From a bacterium (GTDB lineage: Bacteria; Patescibacteria; ABY1; BM507; VMTK01), in contig DAOWHZ010000034.1 of assembly GCA_030641105.1 (NCBI GenBank), forward strand, positions 1 through 9,272: DNA of 9,272 bases. Direction: 5' to 3'. How positions within the stretch are numbered: the first letter of the stretch is position 1; each line of letters starts with the position of its first letter. Below, in pieces: positions 3,418 through 9,235 of this stretch. A model generated the notes under the pieces. It was not told the origin of the DNA and searched no databases. It was given only the letters and a program-made list of their open reading frames with translations. A program made the position numbers and the translations under genes.

Positions 3418-3462
3418 CTCATTCTATTTACTGCTGTCTGTTATTTATCGTCTTCTAACTTT

Positions 3463-3495
3463 GCTCCGTCGCCAAAGCTATGAAACGTCGGCGAC
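3463..3495. repeat. diverged copy of the CCAAAGC palindromic element
   Basis: GTCGCC (3468-3473) pairs with GGCGAC (3490-3495). Its half 3463-3479 read on the minus strand matches 15 of 17 bases of the element after the PSP1 gene (8164-8180). It is a GC-rich island within the 220-nt gap between the hydrogenase stop and the asparaginase-like gene. The rest of that gap is AT-rich, with TTCTTACTTC-like pyrimidine repeats at 3507-3530 and no convincing gene. Confidence 0.6.
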
Positions 3496-3528
3496 TTAAT
3501 TCTAAATTCTTACTTCTATATTTAACTT

Positions 3529-5229
3529 CTACCTTTTTATCTTATAAGTAGTATGCAACACCTGATGCTCCAACTTTCCCTGTTGCTTCAACCATTCCAA
3601 CGCCTCTAATACTCCCTTATTCTCATGCGCCTTTCTAATCTTTTTACCCTTATCAATCTTATATAACGCTTCAATCCGCTTCTGTCTGGTTTCTGGCGTA
3701 GTGGGAATTGGCTGTCCCCCGCCGCCAATACAGCCGCCTGGACAAGCCATAACCTCAATATAATCATATTTATCTAAATTCTCCAGCACTGGTTCAATAT
3801 TGCCTATGCCATTTACCACGGCTACTCTGACTTTTTTGCCGGCTATATCTACAACTGCTTCTTTAATTCCTTTCAGCCCGCGCACATCTTTAAATTCTAA
3901 ACGTGTCTTGCATAATTTATCTTTTTTACCCCGACAAGCTAAAAATTGAGCGGTTCGCAAAGCTGATTCCATTACTCCCCCGCTTCCTCCGTAAATTGCC
4001 GCGGCTCCGCTATATTCGCCTAATGGGCTGTCAGATTTTGCCGGTTTTAAATTAGCAAAATCAATATTATTTTTCTTTATCAGCCAGGCAAACTCGCGCG
4101 TAGTAATAACACAATCAACCGGCCACTGGCCCTGCGCTTTTAATTCTTTTCTTGATGCCTCAAATTTCTTGGCAGTGCAAGGCATAATTGAAACTACAAA
4201 AATATTTTTGGGATTAATATTCATTTTTTGCGCCCAATAAGTTTTAATAATCCCCGCGCTATGAATATGCGGGGATCTGGCAGTTGTTAAATTAGGTATC
4301 AGCTCCGGATGATAAAACTCAACATACTTTACCCAAGCCGGACAGCAGGATGTCATCATTGGCATAACCCCCTTATTTTTAATCCGATATAGTAATTCTT
4401 CAGCCTCAACCATAGTAGTAACATCAGCGCCAAAATTGACATCAAACACATAATTAAAGCCTAATTCACGCAATCCTGCTACAACTTGTCCAGTTACAAT
4501 TTTGCCATAAGGTAAACCAAATTCCTCACCAATACTAACCCGAATTGATGGCGCAAACTGCGCTACTACGACTTTCTTTTTATCCCGCAAAACCTTTTCC
4601 ACCATTTCCCAATGCGTTTGCTCTTGCGCCGCGCCAACCGGACAGTGCACTGCGCATTGGCCGCAATAAATACAATCTATTTTTTTATTATTGGTTGGAG
4701 CTACTTCCTGATTATGTCCTTTGCCTTTTAATTCTAAATAATTAATATTTTGCAAAAGAGAACAAGCATCAATACAATTGCGGCAATCAATGCATTGAGT
4801 GCCGTCAATTTCCACTGCATTGGCAAATTTATAAATCTTGCGCCTGCTTTTGCGGTCTTTAAAACGGGTGATTTCAATTTTGTATCTCTCGGCAAAATTA
4901 AGCAAGGGACAATTAAACCGCCAGATGCAAGTCGGACATTTTTCAATATGCTCGGCAAAAATAAGTTCAATATTCAAATTTCTCACTCTTTTTACTCTAT
5001 CTGAATCAGTAATGATTTCCATGCCGCCTTCAACTTTAGTAGAACACGATGTTACTAAATCTTTTCTACCAACAATCTCGACCACGCAAATCCGACAGTT
5101 GGCTTTTGCCGGAAAATCCGGATGACCGCAAAGCCCGGGAATAAAAATCCCGTTTTCTTTAGCAACCTTGTAAATATTTTTATCTGGCGAGCAGATTATT
5201 TCTTTATTGTTAATTTTGATTTTAATCAT
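3529..5229 (-). CDS. hydA: [FeFe]-hydrogenase, group A, NAD(H)-linked type
   Basis: A 566-residue catalytic subunit that reversibly reduces protons to H2. In order: an N-terminal [2Fe-2S] ferredoxin domain (C34, C45, C48, C62); a His-Cys3 [4Fe-4S] site (H94, C98, C101, C107); two ferredoxin-type [4Fe-4S] clusters (C146, C149, C152, C156 and C186, C189, C192, C196); and the H-cluster domain with TSCCPAW (C295/C296), MPCTAKK (C351) and MACPGGCIGGGGQP (C496, C500). All H-cluster motifs are intact. The end (GQPIPTT, KIRKAHEN, LHTTY) resembles group A3 subunits of NAD-linked, often electron-bifurcating, hydrogenases. It starts 8 nt after the NuoF-like gene with no ribosome-binding site, suggesting one transcript and coupled translation. 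There is no signal peptide, so it acts in the cytoplasm. HydE/F/G maturases would be needed from elsewhere in the genome. Confidence 0.96.
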   Translation of the reverse strand: MIKIKINNKEIICSPDKNIYKVAKENGIFIPGLCGHPDFPAKANCRICVVEIVGRKDLVTSCSTKVEGGMEIITDSDRVKRVRNLNIELIFAEHIEKCPTCIWRFNCPLLNFAERYKIEITRFKDRKSRRKIYKFANAVEIDGTQCIDCRNCIDACSLLQNINYLELKGKGHNQEVAPTNNKKIDCIYCGQCAVHCPVGAAQEQTHWEMVEKVLRDKKKVVVAQFAPSIRVSIGEEFGLPYGKIVTGQVVAGLRELGFNYVFDVNFGADVTTMVEAEELLYRIKNKGVMPMMTSCCPAWVKYVEFYHPELIPNLTTARSPHIHSAGIIKTYWAQKMNINPKNIFVVSIMPCTAKKFEASRKELKAQGQWPVDCVITTREFAWLIKKNNIDFANLKPAKSDSPLGEYSGAAAIYGGSGGVMESALRTAQFLACRGKKDKLCKTRLEFKDVRGLKGIKEAVVDIAGKKVRVAVVNGIGNIEPVLENLDKYDYIEVMACPGGCIGGGGQPIPTTPETRQKRIEALYKIDKGKKIRKAHENKGVLEALEWLKQQGKLEHQVLHTTYKIKR

Positions 5230-5237
5230 AAAAGTAA

Positions 5238-6368
5238 TTATTTAAAACACTCACAAATCACCTTCTTGCTCCCTTTAGGCAAATTAATCTCGCTCTCCGG
5301 CATCTTCATTAAAACATTTTCAATATAAGATCTAATCGGCGCCGGCACAACACAGCCTAATCCGCAAAATGATGTTTCATCCAAATTATTAAGCAATTCG
5401 GCAAACAACTGCCAATCCGGCTTAGGCGACTGCATTATTTCTTTCAAGCGATAAACTCCTTCCCGGCACGGAGTGCACTGGCCGCATGATTCATTAAGAA
5501 AAAAATCCAGCCATCCTGCTATCAGCTTTTTTGGCTGGTATTTTTTTATGCTATAAACAGTAATTGACCCGGCGCCGCTGACCGGCTGTTTTAGTTGTTT
5601 ACTATTCAATGCTTCACCGCTTGCATCACCGCCGACTTGCGCAAAAAAAGCAAACTTTGGCATATTCTTGGTTTGCTTTAACACTTTTTCAATTGTCCAA
5701 TCTTCAGGAAGTTCATATACTCCTGTCCATAAACAATCGCCGCTAATAGTATAAAATCTTTTATTCTCATATTCACCGCTGGCAATCAAGCTGACATCAT
5801 AAAATGTTTCCACATTATTAACCAAGGTCGGACAACCATAAAGTCCATTAGTAGTTGGAAAAGGCGGCCGCAATCTAGGTTCAACTCGCCTACCTTCTAT
5901 GGCGTTAATAGCAGAAGTTTCTTCCCCGCCGATATACCCGGAATTAATTGGCTTAATAAATAATTCAATTGGCAATCCCTTCCCCCCCTCTCCTTTAGAA
6001 GGAGAGAGTTGCTTGCCCGCCAAAGCCTTGGCGTCGGCGGGGGGTGAGGAAATAATCTTATTTAAATTCTTAGCAAATTTTTTATAATACTTATGATTAA
6101 TATAAATTATACCCTTTTCCGCCTCTAAAAAATCAATAGCAATTTTCATGCCATCAATCACTCTTTCCGGAAAATGCTTTAAAATATAGCCGTCCTTTTT
6201 AATTCCCGGCTCGCCTTCAGAAGCATTGCAGATGACATAACATTTTTTTTCTACATTTCTTTTATCAGCCATAGCTTTAGCGACGGCTGACCATTTCACA
6301 GCCGTAGGAAAACAAGCCCCGCCACGGCCAACGAGATTGGCTTTTTTAATTTTATTAAGTATACTCAT
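5238..6368 (-). CDS. NuoF/HydB-like NADH:FMN iron-sulfur subunit of the hydrogenase
   Basis: A 376-residue flavoprotein that should pass electrons between NADH and the hydrogenase. Visible motifs: FMN-binding GRGGACFPTAVKW (14-26) and NASEGEPGIKKD (48-59), the NADH/FMN block GYIGGEETSAIN (144-155) with PPFPTTNGLYGCPTLVNNVE (168-187), and the [4Fe-4S] site SCGQCTPCREG (C295, C298, C301) with C335 in SFCGLGC. It is shorter than HydB of the trimeric bifurcating enzymes, lacking the N-terminal [2Fe-2S] thioredoxin-like domain and the C-terminal double [4Fe-4S] domain. Residues about 107-131 are encoded by a GC-rich palindromic repeat and fall in a loop before the GGEET motif. Translation stays open through it, so the gene is not broken. 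It is first in the pair with hydA. No ribosome-binding site is visible. Confidence 0.92.
   Translation of the reverse strand: MSILNKIKKANLVGRGGACFPTAVKWSAVAKAMADKRNVEKKCYVICNASEGEPGIKKDGYILKHFPERVIDGMKIAIDFLEAEKGIIYINHKYYKKFAKNLNKIISSPPADAKALAGKQLSPSKGEGGKGLPIELFIKPINSGYIGGEETSAINAIEGRRVEPRLRPPFPTTNGLYGCPTLVNNVETFYDVSLIASGEYENKRFYTISGDCLWTGVYELPEDWTIEKVLKQTKNMPKFAFFAQVGGDASGEALNSKQLKQPVSGAGSITVYSIKKYQPKKLIAGWLDFFLNESCGQCTPCREGVYRLKEIMQSPKPDWQLFAELLNNLDETSFCGLGCVVPAPIRSYIENVLMKMPESEINLPKGSKKVICECFK
5976..6050. repeat. in-frame composite palindromic element inside the NuoF-like gene
   Basis: A 75-bp GC-rich block equal to 25 codons. It has one perfect hairpin, CTCTCCTT (5988-5995) with AAGGAGAG (5999-6006), and a second, CCCGCC (6016-6021) with GGCGGG (6036-6041), inside which CGCCAA/TTGGCG can also pair. 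A C-run at 5982-5988 and a G-run at 6039-6044 enclose both, giving a cruciform-like whole ending in GGTGAGGA. Positions 6012-6041 match 27 of 30 bases of the repeat at 8151-8180. Confidence 0.8.
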
Positions 6369-6942: not shown

Positions 6943-7977
6943 TTATACTAAACGTTTCCTCCCAATATACTCGCACAAATCCACCAGCCGATTACTATAT
7001 CCCCATTCATTATCATACCAAGCAACTACTTTAACCAAATTACCTTCAATTACTTTAGTCAAGGACAAATCCACAATCGCGCTGGCTAGATTAGCGATAA
7101 TATCAGAAGAAACAATTGGTTCTTCAGTTGCTTCTATAATGCCGCGGTATCGGGCGCTACGAGCCGCTTTTTTAAAAACCTGATTGATTTTTTTCTCATC
7201 AGTTTTTTTATTAACAACAAAAACAATATCGCACAAAGATCCTACTAAAGTCGGCACCCGTATAGCCATGCCGTCAAATTTGCCTTTTAAAGCAGGAATA
7301 GTTTTGCAGGTAGCAATGGCCGCGCCAGTAGTGGTCGGGACAATATTAACAGCCGCGGCCCTGGCCCGGCGCAAATCCTTATGCGGGCCGTCAACAATAT
7401 TCTGGTCAGCCGTATAAGAATGAACAGTTGTCATAATAGCTTTTTTAATGCCGAAATTCTGCTTGATAATATCTGTAACCGGCGCTAAGCAATTAGTTGT
7501 GCAGGAGGCCATGGAAATAATTTTATCATTTTTATTTATCTTATTTTCATTCACGCCCGGCACAATTGTTTTTATATTATCAGACTTGGCAGGAGCGCTT
7601 ATTATGACTTTTTTTGCGCCTGCTTTCAGATGCATTCTGGATTGCTCTTTTGTTCTAAAGATGCCAGTACACTCTAACGCTATGTCCACATTCATCTCGC
7701 GCCAAGGCAATTGGCTTGGATTTCGTTCTGCTAAAATTTTATACTTTTTTCCTCCCACAAGAAGACTATCAGCAATATAACTTACGCTTTTATTATATTT
7801 GCCATAAGCAGTATCATACTTTAACAAATGCGCCAATGTTTTTGTATCGGTCAAATCATTTATGGCAACGATCTTCAGCGGACGCGACCCCTTAGGGGCG
7901 CGTACGCGAGCACTGTCTAATAACGCTTTAAAAGTGGCTCGGCCGATTCTGCCAAAGCCGTTGATTGCAATGTTCAT
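6943..7977 (-). CDS. gap: glyceraldehyde-3-phosphate dehydrogenase, type I
   Basis: A 344-residue glycolytic enzyme that oxidises glyceraldehyde-3-phosphate with NAD+ and phosphate to 1,3-bisphosphoglycerate in the cytoplasm. Visible: NAD-binding INGFGRIGR (5-13) and AIND (38-41), catalytic C159 in SMASCTTNC with H186 in TTVHSYT, the S-loop region around DLRRARAAAVNIVPTTTGAA, and C-terminal WYDNEWGYSNRLVDL. It is of bacterial type. Residues about 23-33 (ARVRAPKGSRP) are extra relative to usual enzymes, lie on the surface between the first helix and second strand, and are encoded by a GC-rich palindromic island. The catalytic core is intact. It has its own promoter and a structured leader; no ribosome-binding site is seen. 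Its NADH can feed the NAD-linked hydrogenase next door. Confidence 0.97.
   Translation of the reverse strand: MNIAINGFGRIGRATFKALLDSARVRAPKGSRPLKIVAINDLTDTKTLAHLLKYDTAYGKYNKSVSYIADSLLVGGKKYKILAERNPSQLPWREMNVDIALECTGIFRTKEQSRMHLKAGAKKVIISAPAKSDNIKTIVPGVNENKINKNDKIISMASCTTNCLAPVTDIIKQNFGIKKAIMTTVHSYTADQNIVDGPHKDLRRARAAAVNIVPTTTGAAIATCKTIPALKGKFDGMAIRVPTLVGSLCDIVFVVNKKTDEKKINQVFKKAARSARYRGIIEATEEPIVSSDIIANLASAIVDLSLTKVIEGNLVKVVAWYDNEWGYSNRLVDLCEYIGRKRLV
7882..7908. repeat. in-frame palindromic element near the 5' end of gap
   Basis: ACGCG (7882-7886), one bulged A, CCCCT (7888-7892), T, AGGGG (7894-7898), CGCGT (7899-7903) form a near-perfect hairpin. An overlapping perfect 10-bp palindrome CGCGTACGCG spans 7899-7908. 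The block is far more GC-rich than the gene around it and encodes the extra residues about 23-33 of the dehydrogenase. Confidence 0.7.
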
Positions 7978-7995: not shown

Positions 7996-8048
7996 TACCG
8001 AACTTCAGTTCGGGTTCTGGATGCTTTAGCATCCCGCTGAAAAACGGC
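7996..8048 (-). promoter_or_regulatory. tandem hairpins in the gap leader
   Basis: CCGAAC (7998-8003) pairs with GTTCGG (8008-8013) around a 4-nt loop, and GGATGC (8019-8024) pairs with GCATCC (8029-8034) around another 4-nt loop. CCG (8034-8036) with CGG (8045-8047) could form a weaker third stem that competes with the second for one base. On the minus strand the last hairpin is followed by a T-rich tract running up to the gap ATG. This could be an attenuator or an mRNA stabiliser, or another copy of a palindromic repeat. No known riboswitch pattern is recognised. Confidence 0.5.
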
Positions 8049-8125: not shown

Positions 8126-8150
8126 CTTCTTACTTCATACTTCTCACTTC

Positions 8151-8180
8151 CTTGCCCTCCAAAGCCTTGGCGACGGAGGG
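8151..8180. repeat. CCAAAGCCTTGG palindromic element abutting the PSP1 stop codon
   Basis: CCCTCC (8155-8160) pairs with GGAGGG (8175-8180) around AAAGCCTTGGCGAC. The 30-bp unit matches 27 bases of the copy inside the NuoF-like gene (6012-6041). Two of the three differences form one compensatory pair change in the stem (G-C to T-A). The element begins directly after the PSP1 stop codon (8181-8183). Confidence 0.75.
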
Positions 8181-9008
8181 TTACTTCTTTCTATTTAAAT
8201 CCACCTCCACCACTGTACTCTGCTTTTCTCCATTCTCAGGCGGAAACTTAACATCAACAGACTGCTTTAAAATATGAAGTCCGACAATTACTCCCTTTTT
8301 ACCGTCAACATCAACTTTAGTGCCGATTGTTGGTAATCTTTCAGCCAGCTTTTCATAACCGTTTTCCTCATAAGCCAAACAGCACATTAAACGGCCGCAA
8401 ATACCGGAAATACGCTCACTGCCGCGATGTGCAATTTGCTGCAATTCTGCCATTTCTGAACTAATAGAAGTTAAATTCTTTAAAAACCGGCCACAGCACA
8501 AAGGACGGCCGCAATGGCCATAATCACCCATTAATTTTGCCTCATCACGAATGCCAATTTGCTGTAATCTGATAGTTTTACTAAAGTGGCGGGTTAAATC
8601 TTTAACTAACTCTCTGAAATCAATCCTGCCATCAGCAATAAAAGCAAAAGTAACCCGCGAACCATCAAAAGAAAAATGCACATCAACCAATTTCATTGGC
8701 AACTTATGCTTATTAATTATTTCTTTGCAATAATCCAACGCTTTTTTCTTCTGCTTACTATCTGGGATTTTTTCTAAATCAGTAGTTGTTGCTTTTCTAA
8801 GTATTGGTTTTATTTCTCTCTTCTTGTCAACTTCTTGTTCGCTCAACTCTGCTGGCGCGGGCAAATCTTTAAAACCAATCACCTTGCCAATTTCTGTGCC
8901 AAGTTCAGTTTTAACTACAACATAATCTCCAACCACCAAAACCGAATCAACCGGATCAAAGTCATATATTTTATCCCATGGATTAAATTGTATTTGTACA
9001 ATCTTCAT
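8181..9008 (-). CDS. PSP1 domain protein, RicT/YaaT family
   Basis: A 275-residue cytoplasmic protein of the PSP1 family. The N-terminal part (about 1-85) is a beta-rich region (VGDYVVVKTELGTEIGKV). The core carries GHCGRPLCCGRFL (C166, C171, C172) and SGICGRLMCCLAYE (C204, C209, C210), the cysteines that in Bacillus RicT take part in Fe-S cluster binding within the RicA-RicF-RicT complex that affects mRNA maturation. The C-terminal part has short strands around GTKVDVDGKKGVIVG. Length is typical. In many bacteria it follows tmk-holB, but the upstream gene is outside this window. The ATG at 9008 has no ribosome-binding site and lies only about 4 nt from the end of a MITE-like repeat, so its leader is part of that repeat. 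Its own terminator follows. Confidence 0.93.
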   Translation of the reverse strand: MKIVQIQFNPWDKIYDFDPVDSVLVVGDYVVVKTELGTEIGKVIGFKDLPAPAELSEQEVDKKREIKPILRKATTTDLEKIPDSKQKKKALDYCKEIINKHKLPMKLVDVHFSFDGSRVTFAFIADGRIDFRELVKDLTRHFSKTIRLQQIGIRDEAKLMGDYGHCGRPLCCGRFLKNLTSISSEMAELQQIAHRGSERISGICGRLMCCLAYEENGYEKLAERLPTIGTKVDVDGKKGVIVGLHILKQSVDVKFPPENGEKQSTVVEVDLNRKK

Positions 9009-9012
9009 AAAT

Positions 9013-9235
9013 TAGACAACTAGACACTAGTAAATAGACAGCTAGAAATATTTAAATAAATAACCTCTAATATCCTGATGAACTGACATCCTTTCTCTAA
9101 TTACCTTGTTCAACTGATATCCTTAAAGGTTATCAGGTAATCAGTTGAGCGGGGAAAGTTATCCAGATATCAGTATATTAGGAATATCTTTATAATTTCT
9201 TCTAGCTGTCTAGTTGTCTATTTACTAGTTGTCTA
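9013..9235. mobile_element. MITE-like element with terminal inverted repeats upstream of the PSP1 gene
   Basis: About 220 bp with no long frame. Both ends read TAGACAAC inward. The inner ends share a perfect 13-bp match, TAGACAGCTAGAA (9035-9047) against its complement at 9200-9212, and ACTAGTAAA (9026-9034) pairs with 9221-9229; one 8-nt TAGACAAC-type unit is gained or lost between arms. The interior has more palindromes: CTGATATCCTT (9114-9124) with AAGGTTATCAG (9126-9136), CAACTGAT (9111-9118) with ATCAGTTG (9140-9147), and a direct repeat AACTGACATCCTT/AACTGATATCCTT (9081-9093, 9112-9124). A TA at each end may be a target duplication. No transposase is present. The remaining bases to 9272 show nothing certain. 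Confidence 0.5.

Follow-up and report, generated by a model that had tools for sequence, protein, structure and literature searches.

Does the GC-rich palindrome that is read as part of a NuoF/HydB-like protein belong to that protein, or is it repeat DNA that has entered its gene? The gene lies at 5238-6368 on the minus strand of the window, the whole 9,272-nucleotide stretch of DNA analysed here. It was identified by domain matches (Complex1_51K and NADH_4Fe-4S) and by homologues, encodes 376 aa, and adjoins a gene on the same strand for the large subunit of an [FeFe]-hydrogenase (3529-5229; domain match). Our reading, held at a probability of about 0.9, is that selfish repeat DNA has here become part of a protein.

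A 75-bp palindrome in an open frame, and one element within another

Alignment, frame, fold and tree delimited the insert to 5976-6050 on the minus strand, where it forms codons 107-131 (SSPPADAKALAGKQLSPSKGEGGKG) with exact codon boundaries, Ser107 starting at 6050 and Gly131 finishing at 5976. The frame of the host gene was open throughout its 376 codons despite the insert. The GC content of the insert was 64.0%, when compared with 38.6% in the remainder of the gene and 36.2% in the window. The insert was predicted to fold into two hairpins under a common stem; the RNA fold of the insert region (87 nt) reached -42.4 kcal/mol (z -3.29), with 1 of 200 shuffles equally good, and the DNA fold of the insert itself (75 nt) reached -22.1 (z -3.96), which none of 200 shuffles equalled. 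The original prediction of a 75-bp GC-rich double hairpin that constitutes codons 107-131 and leaves the frame open was thus exact in its coordinates. Plain counting of exact hairpins over the whole window was poor evidence, as the four matches at three places were barely above the 0-4 found in 20 shuffles, and an Rfam scan of the window gave no match at the gathering threshold.

The AlphaFold model of the protein (mean pLDDT 88.5) placed the insert between helix 92-107 and strand 134-138, and pLDDT fell below 50 only in segments 118-121 and 123-128, both within the insert. Judging by the motifs of NuoF, this loop presumably lies between FMN/NADH-binding motifs. Canonical NuoF in PDB chains carries a native peptide of its own at the same loop (GFLGKNILGSGFDLEIYV region), so that loop length is variable in any case.

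The insert was composed of two elements, one of 30 bp and the other of about 45 bp. The inner element (6011-6040, minus strand) comprises 10 codons, belongs to the CCGCC..GCCAAGGCTTTGGCGGGC family, and is stop-free in all six frames; its best matches to family members of other genomes (loci L037, L054 and L064) agreed at 29 of 30 bases. The outer element is split into a left part at 6041-6050 (minus strand; TCCTCACCCC), assigned by sequence comparison, and a right part at 5976-6010 (minus strand) with the hairpin CTCTCCTTCTAAAGGAGAG at 5988-6006, assigned by comparing the joined flanks with uninterrupted copies. After excision of 6011-6040, the outer element reads CCTCACCCC joined to AACTCTCTCCTTCTAAAGGAGAGGGGGGG. 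The joined flanks agreed at 34 of 38 bases with block-free copies in L245, L237 and L244, and at 22-34 of 38 over all uninterrupted copies compared; the copy in nuoF of the related genome G202 begins CCTCACCCCAACTCTCTCC, with zero mismatches to the joined start. Since the outer element is contiguous elsewhere and the block recurs elsewhere, one repeat is nested in another. The guess that the two hairpins differ in type and that one may be nested in the other was therefore borne out at the level of single bases.

The inner element also had an extragenic copy in the window, at 8148-8180 (minus strand; sequence match), directly 3' of the stop codon of a PSP1-domain gene (8181-9008, minus strand). 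Part of the insert had been noted to recur at 8151-8180, and the copy there included an exact 22-nt core: with up to three mismatches allowed, CCAAAGCCTTGGCGNCGGNGGG was detected at two sites of the window (6020-6041 and 8159-8180), each an exact match, and nowhere in 200 shuffles. The 33-nt copies in the insert and outside the genes were 88% identical, and the extragenic copy alone folded no better than shuffles (z -0.58). A possible degenerate copy of the inner element lies between genes at 3462-3496 (no strand assigned), judged from a weak hairpin (z -1.67) and a resemblance seen by eye.

A candidate second in-frame insert was found by homologue alignment in the GAPDH gene (6943-7977, minus strand), where 7885-7908 on the minus strand encodes RVRAPKGS, residues 24-31. 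This site was occupied in 6 of the 120 listed homologue rows, the window's own row included, and the best PDB match, 1hdg (which we take to be the Thermotoga maritima enzyme), had seven residues fewer there. RVRAPKGS is likely a second palindrome insertion in the window, although the hairpin of this segment is weak (z -0.78). Near GAPDH residue 131, four homologues (P0133, P0157, P0194 and P0237) had SAKATAGKPA-like peptides similar to ADAKALAGK of the inner element. Two further repeats were observed in the window. Adjacent perfect hairpins CCGAACTTCAGTTCGG and GGATGCTTTAGCATCC occupy 7996-8037 between genes, just upstream of the GAPDH gene (z -4.09, with 0 of 200 shuffles equally good), and a 21-nt inverted repeat with arms 95% complementary and 162 nt apart lies at 9026-9229, upstream of the PSP1-domain gene, and looks MITE-like or regulatory.

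Distribution among NuoF homologues and related genomes

The insert was compared with the best 120 of 7,008 protein-search matches, the window protein included. In this set, the segment from Ile106 to Pro133 had 13-33 residues in 10 rows (again counting the window) and 8 or fewer in the other 110; most of the listed homologues thus have the short form of the loop. Against 26 residues in the window protein, the close homologues P0003, P0005 and P0010 show just 2-3 at this position; the proposed comparison with relatives, which asked whether residues 107-131 are absent from them, was answered accordingly. P0002, with 88% identity across 94% of the query, carries the insert of the window with three substitutions in 25 residues. 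The loop is filled by unlike sequences, with eight insert types among the 120 listed rows and nine when genome G178 is counted: SSPHIFLPHPNPPLINGGNKREG in P0004 (nearly identical in P0006), ISPPFSSSKGEGVNG in P0007, NDTPALTRPNQKE in P0008, TSPQPSQPLPSPPLRKGKEVSPLLTKEGVRGR in P0011, IKTSPHPSSFGKLRTGSCEGEG in P0012, RKIPPSPLAKGGNPPIPPCEGGQ in P0022 and LSNKIVYNKKNENNASFSLRERTGKGNKKT in P0048, besides that of the window and, in G178 (48% identity), CCCCCCTTAATAAGGGGGGATTAAGGGGGG, found in frame in the DNA at L007 1810-1840. Insertion has thus recurred at one and the same loop. Named homologues of both NuoF and GAPDH bear the labels Patescibacteria, Parcubacteria, Falkowbacteria and similar.

Palindromes were also in frame in nuoF of G153 (L005 1749-1770) and G202 (L033, about 1745-1825), each 70% identical, at a different loop, after residue 82 and 25 codons upstream of the site in the window. 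G001 nuoF had no insert, and an exact hairpin search of the G116 nuoF locus (L004) found no hairpin. After residues 34, 158-159 and 203, a few homologues each had short repeat-like peptides. The inserts of G178, G153 and G202 were read from DNA, and most of the others from protein sequence alone. Counts at nuoF site B (27 of 125 rows) were not used, as they combine palindromes and a length variant that is inherited.

A tree of 126 rows (the 120 listed homologues and six genomes, with sparse columns dropped) contained 11 insert-bearing rows and demanded at least 9 changes, 7 of them forced by starred branches, or 11 once insert types were distinguished. The insert labels were somewhat clustered on the tree, as 25 of 500 shuffles gave an equally low number. 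As three changes may represent a single gain followed by two losses, the tree does not separate gain from loss and leaves the number of gains undefined. P0004 and P0006 share one insert while their near relatives are empty and P0001 and P0002 carry another; this pattern suggests that an insert at one site has been precisely lost, replaced or transferred.

Copies of the two families of the window were counted in the window itself and in the genomes of relatives, and 383 genomes of the class, listed at 0.4-1.5 Mb, were searched with one mismatch allowed in the inner core and with a reversed-pattern control. The inner core was present in 39 of the 383 genomes with 44 listed matches (one palindromic site being listed twice), at a single place in 37 of the 39, and the start of the outer element in 21 genomes at 41 sites, up to six per genome; the control gave 0 in every class genome listed. 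Of 18 genomes from the nearest order, none had the inner core and 8 had the outer start. The proposed count of copies in genes and between genes, run on the window and on related genomes, thus found both kinds of copy in the relatives.

Thirty loci per family were inspected. The inner family gave 30 distinct places, 23 of them within ORFs of at least 150 aa; at five of these (L039, L045, L051, L057 and L060), the inner core CCGCCAAGGCTTTGGCGG seemed by our reading to consist of native AKALA codons, and they were left out of the insert count. Of the 18 left, 14 were scanned, each of which had a Pfam match, the hosts including UvrB, MetRS, TypA, TsaD, an S1-domain protein, MurJ, RNase HII, rRNA adenine dimethylase, Lgt and RpiB. 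The outer family gave 31 distinct places, 18 within ORFs of at least 150 aa, and the 12 scanned were all identified; among them were RecA, AlaRS, GatB, DHFR, RecG, HypD, DNA polymerase III delta, a class I tRNA synthetase and two Mur ligases. The place at L220 is in the NuoF of G202. These class-wide places were set by open frame and Pfam match rather than by aligning empty homologues one by one, and some lie near the protein end or outside the Pfam domain (e.g. RecA in L232).

Genome G153 presented a different family at high copy number. In 606,149 bp (the genome size being stated as about 800,000), a search allowing two substitutions detected 38 copies of CCCCTCCTT..AAGGAGGGG, against 1 each for the reversed and the permuted control, and the nuoF palindrome of G153 is a member of this family. 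Fifteen of the 38 were within ORFs of at least 90 aa, and 11 were in frame in identified genes, namely those for NuoF, FemAB, an acyl-CoA synthetase-like protein, ArgRS, peptidase U32, TopA, a DUF4012 protein, two O-antigen ligases, IleRS and UvrA. Four copies (L126:5481, L127:15453, L128:1762 and L179:2031) were dropped as lying before likely starts or in doubtful ORFs. Alignments with homologues showed added residues at the element in TopA, UvrA, IleRS, ArgRS, the acyl-CoA synthetase-like protein and NuoF, and less plainly in FemAB, the DUF4012 protein and the L211 ligase; the L196 ligase, with its ambiguous alignment, and U32 are not counted as plainly supported. When flanking homology was examined against a database of 1,572 ORFs, frame agreement not being demanded, 6 of the 38 copies were flanked on both sides by one homologous gene, and all six were in open frame. 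The IleRS of G153 (1,316 aa; L207 9159-13106, minus strand) has, besides its in-frame palindrome, an internal histidine phosphatase domain at residues 634-814. In G178 (loci L097-L116), ATTCCCGC..GCGGGAAT with its variants was the commonest palindrome family in the sampled part, and we take it to resemble the Neisseria dRS3 repeats.

Comparison with known repeats and search for a mobilising enzyme

Protein-coding palindromes are best known from Rickettsia and Wolbachia, and the Rickettsia palindromic elements (RPEs) were reportedly described by Ogata in 2000 and 2002. RPEs are described as 105-146 bp long and Rickettsia-specific (PMC2229807) or as about 150 bp long in ten families (PMC10969869), and lie in frame within many Rickettsia genes (PMC10969869, PMC2229807). 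By these descriptions, the elements of the window resemble RPEs in being palindromic with a stable stem-loop, in occurring both in genes and between them, and in being translated in frame within unrelated conserved proteins, and the insert of the window lies in a gene whose orthologues lack it. As for high copy number, the window has two copies of the inner element, and the relative G153 has many of another family; in the class genomes searched, the inner core is mostly single. Compared by description and not by sequence, the elements differ from RPEs in their sizes of 30 bp and about 45 bp and in their lineage; prominent in the window and its relatives, too, are an insert nested inside another within a gene and a single loop filled by inserts of unlike sequence. 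Owing to the size of 105-146 bp and the restriction to the genus Rickettsia, the insert was not classed as an RPE. The original prediction of a Rickettsia-type pattern therefore held for the manner of working and failed for size and genus.

Repetitive extragenic palindromes of the GTAG/CGTC type are palindromes of 20-40 bp (PMC3733652). Some lie within uvrA, recB and tRNA synthetase genes, and two Xanthomonas species carry REPs that differ from each other at roughly one position of recB. The GTAG repeats are there assigned to Proteobacteria, Cyanobacteria, Chloroflexi and PVC, with Thermotogae also mentioned, and the word 'candidate' is absent from the text of PMC3733652. The elements described here are likewise short palindromes within genes, with unlike repeats at one site, but neither GTAG nor CGTC stands at the ends of the insert or of the inner block, CGTC being present only inside the inner palindrome when the letters are read directly. 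Because the end tag is absent, the elements were not classed with these REPs. Intragenic MITEs such as ERIC, RU-1 to RU-3 and Correia (PMC2229807) offer a further parallel, since they too are short, non-autonomous repeats, and several contain open frames that are fused in frame to genes. Their size of about 100-170 bp is greater, however, and they bear terminal inverted repeats and in several cases target-site duplication. Among the papers listed in a literature search of titles and abstract starts, with most subscription journals and bioRxiv preprints outside its range, none dealt with intragenic palindromes in Patescibacteria/CPR, and in the CPR paper PMC7143001 the sole mention of 'palindromic' concerns CRISPR.

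Transposases of the Y1 type (IS200/IS605; PF01797) gave 53 matches in 15 of the 18 order genomes. When 30 of these loci were searched for three palindrome families, none was found around any of them, so the RAYT (Y1) flanking that marks GTAG REPs and REPtrons was lacking at these loci of relatives, and mobilisation by Y1 transposases of the same genome was rejected for the three families. At 11 of the 30, an exact hairpin of other families was nearby. At L077, L090, L092 and L096, palindromes of other families (e.g. GGCTCCAGTC..GACTGGAGCC) were observed on one or both sides of the Y1 gene, an arrangement that could be a REPtron.

Origin of the insert and its meaning

Other origins of the insert were weighed against these results. 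A role of the hairpin itself in mRNA or DNA (pausing, stability, attenuation or supercoiling), with the peptide as a side effect, would suit the strong predicted fold and the extragenic copy directly after a stop codon; we consider it unlikely, as unlike sequences fill the loop, most listed homologues manage without an insert, and insertions within open frames of many unrelated genes speak against a gene-specific role. The recurrence of inserts in the same nuoF loops in several lineages could instead reflect the gain of useful new surface peptides, an adaptive diversification of protein loops. This is a somewhat fainter prospect, since the low predicted order of the insert, the lack of a motif common to all inserts and the absence of an insert from most listed homologues fit tolerance better.

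That the peptide belongs to NuoF as a native loop of variable length and has its own function, the hairpins being a product of GC-rich codon choice, is suggested by the peptide that canonical NuoF carries in the same place. Such an origin is very improbable given that 110 of the 120 listed homologues have 8 or fewer residues there, that the insert sequences differ between lineages, that the GC content is 25 points above that of the gene, and that both DNA pieces (30 bp and 45 bp) recur outside nuoF, in unrelated genes and spacers of relatives. Repeats are easily misassembled, so an artefact or chimera of the metagenome contig was also considered; it is scarcely credible, as P0002, listed from a contig of different size, shares the insert but for three substitutions, the frame is intact, and inserts of the same kind are present in other assemblies.

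The preferred reading, selfish repeat DNA turned into protein, would proceed as follows. Several families of short GC-rich palindromes are scattered through the genomes of the class to which the window belongs; they would move as non-autonomous mobile elements and land widely. Where the frame of a palindrome is free of stops and the landing site is a tolerant surface loop, the gene would still work, and the repeat would be translated as added residues; the protein is presumed to be expressed and the added peptide to be neutral or nearly so. In the NuoF-like gene, the outer palindrome was inserted into the loop that separates helix 92-107 from strand 134-138, and the inner palindrome of 10 codons, from another family, was inserted into the outer one. 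A wider picture is possible, and we put it forward tentatively as rather less than an even chance: a class-wide and still active invasion of these small-genome bacteria by protein-coding palindromes, open in many or all frames, which repeatedly invade one another as well as the same permissive loops, lengthen a large share of essential enzymes by extra peptides, and are moved by an enzyme yet to be recognised.

For annotation, the finding calls for caution, as odd proline/glycine-rich peptides in these proteins (SPHPNPLPRGEG, ADAKALAGK and the like) are repeat DNA and not domains. It also adds a lineage of small genomes with palindromes in genes, often essential ones, such as those for RecA, IleRS, TopA and TsaD. 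As unlike elements stand repeatedly at one loop, and orthologues both lacking and bearing an insert are available, the way in which such elements move becomes testable, and the same sets of orthologues make it testable how far enzymes tolerate inserted repeats or put them to use.
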